Of a stretch of 64,000 nucleotides of DNA, positions 30,650 through 63,424 are shown piece by piece. This stretch comes from Massiliimicrobium timonense. GTDB taxonomy: Bacteria; Bacillota_I; Bacilli_A; Erysipelotrichales; Coprobacillaceae. The notes under the pieces were generated by a model. The model did not search any database. It saw nothing but the letters and a program-made list of their open reading frames with translations, and was not told the DNA's origin. The stretch covers positions 1 to 64,000 of the forward strand of contig NZ_NFLJ01000012.1 in the NCBI RefSeq assembly GCF_002160865.1, read 5' to 3'. The translations under genes and the position numbers were made by a program. Position 1 is the stretch's first letter, and the number at the start of each line of letters is the position of its first letter.

Positions 30650-33046
30650 ATGTTTAAGACAAAAGAAGAATTTAAATATGAATTTTCAAGAAGAATTATC
30701 GAATCTTACGGACGTACAGTTGAGGAGTCACATATTACTGAAAAATTTATGACACTTGAAAGAATGGTTCGTGACTATGCTTCTGTCAATTGGGCTATGA
30801 CAAAAATGGCAACAAGAACAAATTATCAAAAACAGGTTCATTATTTCTCTATGGAGTTTTTGATTGGACGTTTACTAGTCAACAACATGATGAATTTAGG
30901 AATTTATGAAATCGCTAAAGAAGGATTAGCTGATTATGGTATTAATATTCATGATTTGGAAGAATTGGAATCTGATGCAGGTCTTGGAAATGGTGGTTTA
31001 GGAAGATTGGCTGCTTGTTTCATGGATTCATTGGCTTCACTTTCTTATCCAGCTTTTGGAAATACCATTCGCTATGAATATGGTTTATTTAAACAGAAAA
31101 TTGAAAATGGATATCAAGTTGAAGTTCCTGATCAATGGTTAAAATTAGGAAATATGTGGGAAGTGAGAAAACCTAAACATGCTGTTGATGTTAAATTCTG
31201 GGGACGTGTTGTATGGAATGAAGAAACTGGAAAGTGGGATCATGTGGATGCTGAATGTGTCAAGGCTGTTCCTTATGATATGCCAATTGTTGGTAATGAT
31301 ACAACTGTCACAAATACACTTCGTTTATGGTCTTCAGAACCAAGTGATGAAATTCCATCTAATAAAGATTTTAGACAATATGCTCAAGAAGTCAGAGATA
31401 TTTGTCAGACATTATATCCAGATGATTCAACACTTGCTGGACGTACATTACGTTTAAAACAACAATATTTCTTTGTATCAGCAGGATTACGTGCTATTAT
31501 TAAAAATCATTTAAGAGTTTATCCATCATTATCTAATTTCCATGAAAAGAATGTTATTCAGTTAAATGATACACATCCAGTATTGGTGATTCCTGAATTG
31601 ATGAGAATCTTAATTGATGAATATGATATGGATTGGGATGAAGCATGGCATATTACAACACAAACATGTGCCTATACAAATCATACAATCTTATCAGAAG
31701 CCCTGGAAAAATGGCCAATTTCAACAATGCAGGCATTACTTCCAAGAGTTTATCAGATTATTGAAGAAATCAATAGAAGATTTATTGGTTATGTGAAACA
31801 TATCAGTGATAACGATGAAGATTTATTAAATCGTGTGATGATTTTAAAAGATGGACAAGTGCATATGGCACACCTTGCGATTGTTGGAAGCTTTAGTGTC
31901 AATGGTGTTGCCAGACTTCATACACAAATTTTAATGGAACAGGAAATGAAAGACTTCTATTTCTTATATCCAAAGAAATTCAATAACAAAACAAATGGAA
32001 TTACACATCGTAGATGGTTGGCTTACTCTAATCCGGAATTAACTTCATTATTAAATGAAACAATTGGTGATGATTGGATTAAACATCCAGAAGAATTAGA
32101 AAAACTCATGGATTATGTAGATGATTCCATTGTTCAAGGTAAATTCTACAATGTGAAACAACAAAGAAAACAAGTTTTAGCTGATTATATTTATAAACAC
32201 AATGGTATCAAAGTAGATGTAAACAGTATTTTCGATATTCAAGTCAAAAGACTACATGCCTATAAACGTCAGTTATTAAATATTATGCATGTGATTTACT
32301 TATATCAACAAATGAAGATGAATCCTGAATTTAAGATTTATCCAAGAACATTTATCTTTGGTGCAAAAGCAGCTCCTGCTTACTATTTTGCAAAGAAAGT
32401 TATCAAATTAATCAACAGTGTTGCTGATGTTGTGAATAATGATCCAGATACAAATGCTTATTTAAAGGTTGTCTTTATTGAAAACTATGGTGTTACAATT
32501 GCTGAAAAGATTATGCCTGCTGCAGATGTTTCTGAACAGATTTCTACAGCTGGAAAAGAAGCAAGTGGAACAGGTAACATGAAGTTCATGATGAATGGTG
32601 CTGTCACTGTAGGGACACTTGATGGTGCAAATGTAGAAATTGCTGAACGTGTTGGCGATGACAATGTGATTATCTTTGGTTTAAAAGATAATGAAATCAA
32701 TGAATTAAGATGGAATGGACAATATAATGCATGGGATTATTATAATAATGATCCTCGTATTAAAAATGTTGTTGATTCATTAGTTGATGGAACATTCCAT
32801 GCTTCAAGAGAAGAATTTAGAATGATTTTTGATGAATTGATGAATCGTAATGATGAATACTTCTTATTTGCAGATTTTGAAGCTTACTTAAAAGCACAGG
32901 CAAAAGTTGATGAATTGTATCGTGATCGCGCAAAATGGTCTAAGATGTGTCTTGTCAATATTGCACAGTCTGGATATTTCTCATCAGATCGTACAATTGA
33001 AGAATATGTAAAAGATATCTGGAAATTAGATAGAGTGAAAAGATAA
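30650..33046 (+). CDS. glgP: Glycogen/starch/maltodextrin phosphorylase
   Basis: A 798-residue GT35 enzyme that releases glucose 1-phosphate from alpha-1,4-glucans with inorganic phosphate. SMEFLIGRLLVNN and LGNGGLGRLAACFMDS lie in the N-terminal half; the pyridoxal phosphate site is EASGTGNMKFMMNGA with the Lys near residue 645; LDGANVEIAE follows. Full length. In operon with glgB, so branching and breakdown are expressed together; no glgC, glgD or glgA is in the window. Confidence 0.96.
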   Translation: MFKTKEEFKYEFSRRIIESYGRTVEESHITEKFMTLERMVRDYASVNWAMTKMATRTNYQKQVHYFSMEFLIGRLLVNNMMNLGIYEIAKEGLADYGINIHDLEELESDAGLGNGGLGRLAACFMDSLASLSYPAFGNTIRYEYGLFKQKIENGYQVEVPDQWLKLGNMWEVRKPKHAVDVKFWGRVVWNEETGKWDHVDAECVKAVPYDMPIVGNDTTVTNTLRLWSSEPSDEIPSNKDFRQYAQEVRDICQTLYPDDSTLAGRTLRLKQQYFFVSAGLRAIIKNHLRVYPSLSNFHEKNVIQLNDTHPVLVIPELMRILIDEYDMDWDEAWHITTQTCAYTNHTILSEALEKWPISTMQALLPRVYQIIEEINRRFIGYVKHISDNDEDLLNRVMILKDGQVHMAHLAIVGSFSVNGVARLHTQILMEQEMKDFYFLYPKKFNNKTNGITHRRWLAYSNPELTSLLNETIGDDWIKHPEELEKLMDYVDDSIVQGKFYNVKQQRKQVLADYIYKHNGIKVDVNSIFDIQVKRLHAYKRQLLNIMHVIYLYQQMKMNPEFKIYPRTFIFGAKAAPAYYFAKKVIKLINSVADVVNNDPDTNAYLKVVFIENYGVTIAEKIMPAADVSEQISTAGKEASGTGNMKFMMNGAVTVGTLDGANVEIAERVGDDNVIIFGLKDNEINELRWNGQYNAWDYYNNDPRIKNVVDSLVDGTFHASREEFRMIFDELMNRNDEYFLFADFEAYLKAQAKVDELYRDRAKWSKMCLVNIAQSGYFSSDRTIEEYVKDIWKLDRVKR

Positions 33047-41000: not shown

Positions 41001-41437
41001 ATGTTCCTGTAGATGGGTATATACCAGAAAACTATGTGGAAAATGATATGGAAAAATTAAATCTGTATCAACGTATTTATAAAGCGCAGCATTTAACACA
41101 GTTACAGGCACTTGAAAGTGAGTTAAAGGATTTATATGGAACATTACCAAGAGAAGTTCAAAATATTGTATTCAAACGTCAATATGAAATCTTATGTACT
41201 GAACCATTTATTGATGAGGTCAAGGAAACGGGTAATGATGTTCAATTAATGCTGACACAGGAATTTTCTTCACATGTTGCAGGTGATCAGCTTTTTGAAT
41301 TAGTCAATCGTTTATATGACAAACCACAATTAAAATATATTAAAAATGAAATTGTCATTGTTATATCTACAACTGGAAAATGGTTACCACATACAATAGA
41401 ATTATTGAATGAATTAAAGAAAATGAATGAACAATAA
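38006..41437 (+). CDS. mfd: Transcription-repair coupling factor Mfd
   Basis: A 1143-residue ATPase that removes stalled RNA polymerase and recruits UvrA. Order: UvrB-like N-terminal domains (RVDEPFYYSKRGGVIDVYS), RNA-polymerase-interacting CarD-like domain (IGDYVVHDIHGIGQYMG, about residue 480), RecG-like helicase with Walker A GDVGFGKTE near residue 627, IDEEQRFG, GRVGRSE, and the TRCF C-terminal domain (YIPENYVENDMEKLNLYQ). Full length. Confidence 0.97.
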   Translation: MKKIIQILKNNPAYLAMLKGKGEIVVSHASDEAILIASAFFTCPKMMLVIKDSLYQAQLLYQELYPLLHQKVVFFPCDESLRVEALASSQELVGERIHALSRISSQQPLVVICHTQSYLRYLPHPQIFKKHTLHLEVGMTIDPLFLREKLIYSGYQMIQRVDEPFYYSKRGGVIDVYSIQYDNPIRIEFFDDEIESLRFFDKNTQRSLENVKDVLILPATDILYDDQDIENVISQIEMMKEQTDCEEYQDELDEDISIDIEAIKNHQSTSRLYQYMGLFPTSTTLRSYFDDVLILTSSQEKIKTVYHQYVEETFYYSHELQSMGKMVKGLSLYHELPSLLTKSDIDFLDFRENEKQIVFFTREVQLSLLNEAQLIQQIKDYLVQNTILMCLENSHQIQMMTDLLEQHQLSYTLIGHDDHIYQGINIYMGELSTGIDFCEEHVVLMTEKELFKVNTQKKKGYIKYKDAKIINDYTELNIGDYVVHDIHGIGQYMGIKTLEVKGSKKDYLYIAYKGNDTLYIPVENFKLVRKYASRDGKVPKIHSLNSTEWQKAKQKVRKKVDDLADRLIEIYSQRMKQPGFAFPKDDALQIQFEECFGYELTPDQKEAVKEIKADMEMPRPMDRLLCGDVGFGKTEVALRACFKAILGGKQVAFLCPTTILSSQHYHTMIKRFENFPVQVALLNRFTSTKQRKQILEDVKEGKIDLLVGTHRILSNDVVFKDLGLLCIDEEQRFGVKQKEKIKEIRKTIDVLTLTATPIPRTLQMSLMGIRGLSQIETPPLNRLPVQTYVMEKNPQLVKQVIERELGRKGQVFYLHNQTANIESVANEIARLVPQARIGIGHGRMSKDELEKVMQSFVDHEYDILVCTTIIETGIDIPNANTIIIENADRFGLSQLYQIKGRVGRSERLAYAYLLYAKNKQMNEEATKRLKAIKEFAQLGSGYKIAMRDLSIRGSGDILGGEQAGFIDTVGFDMYMKILQEAIDEKTGEKKEEQEVPVQNVPVDGYIPENYVENDMEKLNLYQRIYKAQHLTQLQALESELKDLYGTLPREVQNIVFKRQYEILCTEPFIDEVKETGNDVQLMLTQEFSSHVAGDQLFELVNRLYDKPQLKYIKNEIVIVISTTGKWLPHTIELLNELKKMNEQ

Positions 41438-41500
41438 TTTGATATCAAAGAATAGTCAACGATTAGGATAAGTGTCATATCTTTCAATATGATAATGTAA

Positions 41501-41536
41501 AAAACGGAATCAAAACAATGATTCCGTTTTTATATA
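41501..41536 (+). terminator. Terminator of pth-mfd
   Basis: AAAACGGAAT (41501-41510) pairs with ATTCCGTTTT (41521-41530), then T. Confidence 0.88.
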
Positions 41537-41543
41537 ACAAGTT

Positions 41544-41690
41544 TTATTGAATTTTTCTATCTTTTAGAAATCTTTTCAAAAAGAAAGCTAAAAAATAGGG
41601 GAAAGTATAGAAATATTCATTGAATCCAATGTTTTTGTTTGCAAACTTGATTGCATAATGAATATCTAAATATTGATCATCTCGAATCAT
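41544..41690 (-). CDS. Possible 48-residue protein of unknown function
   Basis: An ATG at 41690 on the minus strand opens 48 codons with sensible composition: MIRDDQYLDIHYAIKFANKN, then aromatic FNEYFYTFPYFLAFFLKRFL and a basic end KDRKIQ. No good ribosome-binding site precedes it (AAGG is 20 bases away). It could be a small amphipathic protein, the 3' remnant of a longer gene, or chance. A promoter-like TTGAAA-18-TAAGAT (about 41729-41758) and a repeat array lie upstream. Confidence 0.3.
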   Translation of the reverse strand: MIRDDQYLDIHYAIKFANKNIGFNEYFYTFPYFLAFFLKRFLKDRKIQ

Positions 41691-41738
41691 AGAATTTATT
41701 TTGTGAGATTGCCTTATTTAACTATAAGTTTATCTTAT

Positions 41739-41848
41739 CACAAAATTCAGGCTATTTTCAATGAGATACACACATTTTTCCAGCTGTTTATAGACTTTAT
41801 ATTCACATTTTTCCAACAATATTTTCTATTATCTATCACAATTTTCCA
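41739..41848. repeat. Four-copy 12-nt repeat array with 33-nt period
   Basis: Plus-strand copies: CACATTTTTCCA at 41771 and 41804, CACAATTTTCCA at 41837 (exact 33-nt steps), and a degenerate CACAAAATTCAG at 41739 (32-nt step). The 21-nt stretches between differ completely. Read on the minus strand the repeat is TGGAAAAATGTG. It looks like a set of helically phased protein-binding sites upstream of the possible minus-strand gene at 41544-41690. Confidence 0.6.
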
Positions 41849-41907
41849 ATTATAATCAAAAAAACTGTTGAATTAATAGATTTCCATATAAAATATAACA
41901 GTTTATT

Positions 41908-41961
41908 ACAAAAAAAGAGCTTAAGGAAATAACTCATAAAAAGTTATTTCGTATCGCTCTA
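41908..41961 (-). terminator. Long terminator hairpin of the dUTPase gene
   Basis: Inner stem GAAATAACT (41926-41934) with AGTTATTTC (41942-41950), outer stem AGAGC (41916-41920) with GCTCT (41956-41960), followed on the minus strand by seven T. It overlaps the gene's stop. Confidence 0.85.
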
Positions 41962-42562: not shown

Positions 42563-43477
42563 ATGATAAGAATTTTTATTAATATCTCTATTTATATCAT
42601 TGTTATAGCGTTAATTATGTATATTATATATTGCTTATATAATTACATATTAAAAAAAGATTTTTTAAATACATACCATATTGGAAAATTGCCATCGGGC
42701 ATTGTAATCAGAAAATGCAATAATGAAAACGAAAAGAATCATTATGAATTGGAGTATCCTTATTGGTCAGTAAGTAAAAAAGATGGTACAGCTGATAAAA
42801 GGGTTAAGAATAATTCTATTATTTGGAGAAAAAGCAAATTATATATTGGACATTATTTAGTTTATTCAAAAAAACCTTATGAATTGCTTGTGGTTGTGAA
42901 AGATTTACGTCATTTAGGAATAGAAATATCTATGTGTAAAGAAGAAAAGGAAAAATATTTTCGTATTTTAAAAAGAAAACAGACTTTTTGTCTTAATAAT
43001 AGTGTTCAAAAGATTGTAGACTATTTTGTAAATAAGCCTACTGATTTTGAAAATCTTTGCGCTCAAGTATATGAAACTATGGGATATAATGTACAAATTA
43101 CACCTCCGACTAATGATGGAGGATATGATTTAGTAATGATGAAAGATGATGAAAAGACAATTGTTGAATGCAAATGTTATTCAATAAATCATAAAGTTGG
43201 ACGACCAAGTATTCAAAAAGTTGTAGGTGCAAATAATGTAGTATTAGCTGATCATGTTATTTTTATTACAACAAGTGACTATAGTGCGGCTGCAATTTCA
43301 TATGCAAAAGAAGCAGGGGTAGAACTTATCAATGGTATGGATTTTATAAATATTTTGGAGAAATATGGGTTTATGGATCAAAATGATATAGAGGTTGATG
43401 CTTCTGAGTATCAGCTGAAAAATATAGATTTATATCCTTATGTACCTAATGACATTTATGAAAAATTTTTTAGATAG
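42563..43477 (+). CDS. Membrane-anchored Mrr-like restriction endonuclease-fold protein
   Basis: A 304-residue protein. One N-terminal membrane helix (residues 5-30), a basic linker domain of about 100 residues, then an Mrr_cat domain (residues 160-270): FENLCAQVYETMGYNVQITP, GGYDLVM with the catalytic Asp, and VECKCYS giving the E-x-K motif, followed by VVGANNVVLADHVIFITTS. Such proteins cut modified or foreign DNA or act in DNA-damage response; the anchor suggests action at the membrane. No methyltransferase is nearby. AGAGGGGAAAC precedes ATG. Confidence 0.82.
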   Translation: MIRIFINISIYIIVIALIMYIIYCLYNYILKKDFLNTYHIGKLPSGIVIRKCNNENEKNHYELEYPYWSVSKKDGTADKRVKNNSIIWRKSKLYIGHYLVYSKKPYELLVVVKDLRHLGIEISMCKEEKEKYFRILKRKQTFCLNNSVQKIVDYFVNKPTDFENLCAQVYETMGYNVQITPPTNDGGYDLVMMKDDEKTIVECKCYSINHKVGRPSIQKVVGANNVVLADHVIFITTSDYSAAAISYAKEAGVELINGMDFINILEKYGFMDQNDIEVDASEYQLKNIDLYPYVPNDIYEKFFR

Positions 43478-63352: not shown

Positions 63353-63378
63353 AAAAGAGATGGTGAGCCATCTCTTTT
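63353..63378 (-). terminator. Expression-platform hairpin of the preQ1 riboswitch
   Basis: AAAAGAGATGG and CCATCTCTTTT form an 11-bp stem with a four-base loop immediately behind the aptamer. The T tract is short (TTTTC), so it may act by termination or otherwise. Confidence 0.65.
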
Positions 63379-63415
63379 CCTTAGTTTTTTATACTGGGTT
63401 TGGCTCTCGAACCAG
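63379..63415 (-). promoter_or_regulatory. PreQ1 class I riboswitch aptamer
   Basis: Minus strand from 63415: CTGGTTC, GAGAGCC, AAACCCAG, then TATAAAAAACTAAGG. CTGG pairs with CCAG (63397-63394), and the A-rich tail with terminal CTAAGG matches the H-type pseudoknot consensus of preQ1-I aptamers (compare the Bacillus queC leader). It should switch off the ECF/radical SAM operon when preQ1 is plentiful. Confidence 0.88.
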
Positions 63416-63424
63416 TGTATGTTT

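Follow-up and report, generated by a model that had tools for sequence, protein, structure and literature searches.

What is an array of short, strictly phased repeats doing in the gap between mfd and a dUTPase-type gene (dUTPase_2) of Massiliimicrobium timonense? The gap occupies positions 41437-41959 of the window, i.e., of the whole 64,000-nucleotide stretch of this genome (G000) that was analyzed. On the forward strand, CACATTTTTCCA is present at 41771-41782 and at 41804-41815, and CACAATTTTCCA at 41837-41848, with a pitch of exactly 33 nt, while a weaker copy, CACAAAATTCAG, is found 32 nt away, at 41739-41750. The preliminary description had reported this period and the weaker copy, and had noted that, in the minus-strand direction, a promoter-like element follows the array. 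Its coordinates were confirmed, no equal of the array was produced by shuffling, and hexamers resembling the -35 and -10 boxes were located at the expected side. The features of the region are as follows:

41837..41848, minus strand: array copy 4 (distal from the gene), TGGAAAATTGTG, identical in G001, a genome of the same genus
41804..41815, minus strand: array copy 3, TGGAAAAATGTG, also in G001
41771..41782, minus strand: array copy 2, TGGAAAAATGTG, also in G001
41756..41761, minus strand: -35-like hexamer TTGAAA (consensus match only)
41739..41750, minus strand: array copy 1 (proximal, weaker), CTGAATTTTGTG, with the same placement in orthologues
41732..41737, minus strand: extended (TG) -10-like hexamer TAAGAT (consensus match)
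41711..41712, minus strand: approximate deletion junction, about 1.19 kb lost, roughly codons 1-395 of an ATPase gene
41544..41690, minus strand: 48-codon frame, the leftover C-terminal end of a DUF4143 (PDC-S01) ATPase gene, near-identical to the 3' end of the G001 gene
41500..41531, no strand assigned: perfect 13-bp inverted repeat AAAAACGGAATCA/TGATTCCGTTTTT, conserved in G001

Array copy 1 is situated between the -35 and -10 hexamers and provides the TG of the extended -10. A promoter scan of the array region gave 18 sites, compared with 12.3 in shuffled sequences. Taken by itself, the 12-mer is no rarity in so AT-rich a window, where it has 25 matches at two mismatches or fewer (18.4 expected). 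A search for three equally spaced copies (spacing of 14-60 nt, at least 11 of 12 letters identical) indicated the array at 41739-41848 as the sole one in the 64 kb, and 20 dinucleotide shuffles of the whole window contained no comparable three-copy array. Moreover, its score was reached by none of 1000 local shuffles. Matches to all 11 letters of GGAAWWWTGTG are limited, on the window's minus strand, to the three array places; the plus strand has one, at 31148. The Rfam search revealed no match at the array; the sole Rfam match of the window is a PreQ1 riboswitch at 63375-63421 (minus strand). A CRISPR array was rejected, as the conserved core is 10-12 nt long (not more than 20 nt) and is present in two to four copies.

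The intergenic DNA was compared with the genomes of 40 relatives, nine of which gave any match. In G001 the same flanks and the same array were found, and there the array precedes an intact minus-strand gene of a 447-aa ATPase (P0001), whose start codon follows the array. The matches to G001 break at query position 272/273, where G001 has 1187 extra bases; as these complete the 447-aa gene, the genome of the window has undergone an internal deletion. It keeps the array, the promoter and the last 48 codons, and the array was orphaned by this event. The 48-codon frame, to which the preliminary description had drawn attention, is therefore not a functional gene, being the truncated 3' end of the 447-codon ATPase gene; it was recovered by a tblastn search with P0001, and in the Pfam search it had no match of its own. 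The 13-bp inverted repeat is likely a two-way terminator of mfd and the lost gene; the terminator scan of the region listed none.

No cassette separates mfd from the dUTPase-type gene in G003, a third genome of this genus, where the two are adjacent; the array and the gene therefore appear to have arrived together. The mfd-dUTPase_2 gap is a variable spot, nearly empty in G003, occupied by the PDC-S01 cassette in G000 and G001, and by a RelE-like toxin/antitoxin-like pair (frames read by eye) in G002, while in G004 the two flanking genes are about 29 kb apart. Just past dUTPase_2 of the window, at 42563-43477 (plus strand), a second defence-type gene is present, encoding a restriction-endonuclease-like protein (Mrr_cat, 5.4e-27). 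The loss of the ATPase gene is not unique to the window, since the orthologue L040 (G048:C108:4483-5772) is broken into three pieces. At another locus, L152 (G004:C1:1009500-1016500), the array is surrounded by elements with transposase-like frames, one of which lies between the array and the ATPase gene, now about 2 kb apart; this gene may therefore have lost its normal control.

For the analysis of intact loci, 80 orthologues (65-100% identical) from Bacillota, Bacteroidales and a Sphaerochaeta were collected, 79 of which had enough upstream DNA, and 250 bp upstream of each were scanned with GGAAWWWTGTG (at least 9 of 11 letters). This resulted in 261 matches (13.2 per kb), with at least two in each of the 79 upstream regions; the background, measured in antisense gene bodies and in DNA downstream or far upstream, was 0.9 to 1.5 per kb. 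All 261 face the gene, vs 16 matches in the reverse orientation, and the consecutive spacings are mostly 32 (89 times) or 33 nt (47 times). After prior removal of L115 (contig end) and L120 (array disrupted, as judged by eye), a phased chain at 30-35 nt was identified in 75 of 78 orthologues, with two (12), three (50) or four copies (13), and three orthologues were without a chain. Among the 65 non-Bacteroidales arrays, the proximal core is directly followed by a -10-like TAnnnT in 62, and preceded by TTGA/C within 16 nt in 42. In Bacteroidales, a TAnnTTTG box stands after the proximal core in 8 of 10 arrays, so the word is kept though the promoter type differs. Phased, conserved repeats were thus found at the gene's own promoter, as is expected of an autoregulatory operator. 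A loss of phase in relatives, which the preliminary description had named as evidence against its reading, was looked for and not found: motif, orientation and 32/33-nt phase are kept. Far from being an oddity of this one gap, the array is the usual control region of this gene family.

The association was also followed in the opposite direction, from the pattern to the gene. The strict two-copy pattern was found in 5 of 43 genomes of the bacterial family, in three of them before the gene, in G004 split from it by the insertion, and in G000 as the orphan, while the reversed control pattern gave one match across all 43. Within the flanks of the 80 loci, no neighbour gene family recurred in more than five; hence no separate regulator travels with the gene, and a separate regulator gene was rejected as the source of the binder.

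In the comparison of DUF4143 loci (nine loci without a gene call were dropped), the motif was private to each gene lineage and the pitch followed the protein clade. The genome of the window itself carries arrays of GGAAAAATGTG, TTGAAGAAATG and ATTGAAAAGTT before different DUF4143 genes, and GGAAAAATGTG is common to orthologues in other phyla. Word similarity rises with protein identity in both large clades (Mantel r 0.53 in the clade with the 33-nt pitch and 0.24 in the one with the 23-nt pitch, reached in 0 of 999 permutations in each), mainly among close relatives, i.e., above about 60% and 70% identity, respectively. Since the word is private to the gene lineage and tracks protein identity, its reader should travel with the gene, and as the only gene travelling with the array is that of the ATPase, this points to the ATPase as the reader. 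When motif similarity was correlated with sequence identity separately for each of four parts of the protein, neither the winged helix nor any other domain stood out.

To describe the family more widely, a motif-blind survey was applied, in which three-copy repeats were sought within 180 bp upstream, at lags of 14 to 60, with 200 shuffles per gene. Among 227 DUF4143 genes, 225 were usable (two had too little upstream sequence), and 142 of them had significant arrays (at 0.05), 94 at 31-34 nt, 43 at 23 or 46 nt and five elsewhere; these counts are not independent draws, because the surveyed genes are related and were found by similarity. Of 250 control upstream regions, drawn from 313 belonging to other genes of the same loci, 19 were significant. 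Once seven of the 19 that belonged to the same intergenic region or to the gene are set aside, 12 of 243 remain, as expected at the nominal rate. Real arrays do escape the motif-blind test: it found 54 of the 73 testable orthologues, compared with 79 of 79 for the motif scan with its at least two matches.

A tree built from 178 genes, for which one orthologue in three was kept, separates the pitches of 33 and 23 nt by one change. The 23-nt set is a single clade of 48 genes, 43 of them significant at 23 or 46 nt, and the 33-nt set a single clade of 95, in which 58 of the 94 testable genes were significant at that pitch, 34 were not significant and two had other lags. Among the 35 genes outside both clades, 31 were not significant, three had other lags and one had a 31-nt lag; this third group being mostly without arrays, the protein family can do without one. 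A separate look at 30 genes of the 23-nt clade (three were dropped) gave a best lag of 22-24 nt in all 27 analyzed, 24 of them at p 0.05, and the downstream regions of the same genes gave none at that level. At one locus with this pitch, L199, the look of the array suggests a recent expansion: at least seven whole 23-nt units (AAAAAGCAAAGCAAACTATCGCC) hardly differ from one another, and the letters between the cores are conserved as well.

Significant arrays were moreover detected in plasmid or phage records of Segatella, Prevotella, Vibrio and Collinsella, and in two further phage records; among the 12 plasmid and phage genes looked at, six were significant at 32-33 nt and six were not. Arrays of 22-23 nt were found in Collinsella, and before plasmid genes of Rhizobium etli and Mycobacterium riyadhense (p 0.005 and 0.01), whose products have N-termini resembling, by eye, those of the mostly array-less group. 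A Thermus gene from the same search showed a G-rich lag of 26-27, which we do not believe to be an array.

P0001 contains the DUF4143 (5.5e-29) and AAA_14 (3.2e-24) domains, both present also in five other proteins, and matches over its full length the PADLOC PDC-S01 models (PDLC04786, E 6e-147); PDC-S01 profiles were likewise matched by the proteins of L160 (1.6e-61) and L016 (3.1e-90). The PDB sequence search with P0001 returned chance matches to neuropilin only, NCBIfam held no model for it, and its PHROGs matches were weak and partial. Only two relatives were found on viral contigs, and homologues were found on 60 plasmid records.

The AlphaFold model of P0001 has a mean pLDDT of 91.6, and its first 324 residues resemble archaeal ATPases, i.e., PAB2304 (2qen; Z 16.4, rmsd 3.7, 260 aligned) and SSO1545 (2fna; Z 15.5, rmsd 3.8, 260 aligned), followed by CED-4/NLR proteins with Z of 12 to 13.6 (CED-4 itself 13.6, rmsd 5.4, 271 aligned). 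From this model we infer that the middle of the protein is a DNA-binding winged helix. The C-terminal part, modelled alone (pLDDT 81.5), gave its best score with 2czr, a TBP-interacting protein (Z 8.6), and matched the McrC chain of McrBC (6hz4_N; Z 8.3, rmsd 2.9, 106 aligned) and Can2 (8q41_B; Z 8.0, rmsd 4.1, 118 aligned); Foldseek matches were weak (best E 1.7e-3). Most of the structural matches of this part are entries that we take to be of the PD-(D/E)XK class, and 52 orthologues show little or no variation at E346, D373, E386 and K388. The modelled C-terminal domain thus resembles PD-(D/E)XK nucleases.

Taken at the level of sequence, the array is probably the self-operator of a single-gene candidate defence cassette, consisting of the AAA_14 + DUF4143 ATPase gene (PDC-S01), which has been lost here. 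Each gene of the two large clades has its own word of 10-12 nt, repeated head to tail and ending at or on the promoter, with a clade-specific pitch of 32/33 nt, roughly three helical turns, or 23 nt, roughly two (with 10.5 bp per turn, 3.1 turns for 33 nt and 2.2 for 23 nt). The encoded protein would bind these words cooperatively through its winged-helix region, on roughly one face of the DNA, and the bound protein would limit its own transcription. In the clade of the window the -35 and -10 boxes flank the proximal word, the placement expected of a repressor site, and because of this overlap with the promoter its occupancy should repress. In the 23-nt clade the array, inspected by eye, commonly stops on the 5' side of the -35 box and close to it, so that it may serve activation instead. 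That proteins bind the phased repeats cooperatively, as already suggested in the preliminary description, is well supported indirectly, because motif, orientation and 32/33-nt phase are conserved in relatives. The comparisons show the association of array and gene, with its phase, its orientation and its lineage-specific words, and they show the deletion; that the cognate protein is the binder, that it binds cooperatively and that repression is the effect, we infer.

Several other explanations have to be weighed against self-regulation. A host regulator, activator or repressor, might bind the array and control the defence gene together with other genes; arrays do sit at promoters, and such a protein would explain the control without self-binding. 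We regard this as quite unlikely, given that the paralogues within G000 differ in word, that orthologues in other phyla share one, and that in the 43 genomes the two-copy pattern occurs only at this gene's own array. Somewhat more room should be left for the array as a part of the defence itself, on which the ATPase-nuclease would be parked as on an oligomerisation scaffold or guard, infection causing its release or titration and thereby arming it, with expression control secondary. The head-to-tail, strictly phased and asymmetric sites would suit an oriented oligomer, the closest folds are those of STAND/Apaf-like and ORC/Cdc6 ATPases, which assemble into oligomers or on DNA, and the difference between 23 and 33 nt is about one helical turn. 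One DUF4143 group is nevertheless without arrays, and simple autoregulation accounts for the same data, so we consider the parked scaffold unlikely. Combining both ideas, PDC-S01 proteins could be self-addressed immune switches, defined by a private word, head-to-tail assembly and clade-set pitch, in which the parked complex would be the off state disturbed by infection. This we put forward tentatively, as a proposal with a small chance of being right; if true, the array would be a functional element of a candidate defence gene that ranks among the commonest.

On the evolutionary scale the cassette is mobile, being present in G000 and G001, absent from the gap of G003 and located elsewhere in G002 and G011, and the occurrence of homologues on plasmids would also fit repeats that are iteron-like or recombination sites of a replicating or moving cassette. 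This is highly improbable, because the array is one-sided and situated at the promoter, terminal repeats were not noticed, and no replication protein domain was found. An iteron-controlled replicon in particular was rejected, the adjacent gene being AAA_14 + DUF4143 with no Rep domain found. Least probable of all is that the copies are remnants of promoter duplication to which no dedicated protein binds. The proximal copy does run into the extended -10 in Bacillota (GGAATTTTGTGATATAAT), but the distal copies retain GGAAWWWTGTGA and not TATAAT, the word persists in Bacteroidales beside another promoter type, and the words of the 23-nt clade are unlike promoters.

A private array with a clade-set pitch before the gene provides a direct handle on the protein's target, its spacing and the possible switching of its expression, and the arrays may reveal how PDC-S01 genes are switched. 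In practice, the start of a PDC-S01 gene, whether it is intact and how it is related to others can be tested simply from DNA; orphan arrays, like that of the window, mark lost genes, and the naturally varied protein-word pairs are a source for reading a recognition code.

According to the published descriptions, PDC-S01 is a PADLOC phage defence candidate, an ATPase plus PD-(D/E)XK (PMC12988326). It is placed fourth by frequency among the defence systems (or candidates) of prokaryotes, is one of the loci met most often in rumen genomes (PMC12988326, PMC13356809), and the validation of most PDCs is said to be pending (PMC12988326). P0001 matches this system over its full length, and the window's own gene is deleted. 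Upstream arrays are not mentioned in the available text of these two papers. A description of them was not found in the literature searched, most subscription papers and preprints lying outside that search, nor did any paper there link PDC-S01 with direct repeats or deal with 23/33-bp repeats; the arrays before PDC-S01 genes have probably gone unnoticed so far. In one report, a Thermus DUF4143 gene was up 6.6-fold with a plasmid in an Argonaute-bearing strain (PMC4406477), which shows regulation, not its mechanism.

Among characterized regulators, IniR of mycobacteria, as described in the available part of its report, binds a promoter and shares with P0001 an SSO1545-like AAA+ ATPase domain (PMC5760070). 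It differs in having a separate C-terminal DNA-binding domain and in being a proposed activator of another operon, and neither a nuclease-like domain nor the term 'direct repeat' appears in that text (PMC5760070). The archaeal ATPases PAB2304 and SSO1545, as well as STAND/Apaf-like ATPases, share the arrangement of AAA and winged-helix domains with the P0001 model; the match of the two archaeal proteins extends only to about residue 324, and the nuclease-like C-terminal part of P0001 is extra. We know of no operator arrays of PAB2304 or SSO1545. Plasmid iterons are direct repeats that run head to tail in helical phase next to the gene for a replication initiator, a winged-helix protein regulating its own synthesis. 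Unlike them, the PDC-S01 arrays are not accompanied by a replication initiator, are mostly chromosomal, have words differing from gene to gene, and have cores of 10-12 nt separated by 11 or 21 nt; like them, they are placed head to tail, in helical phase, beside the gene.
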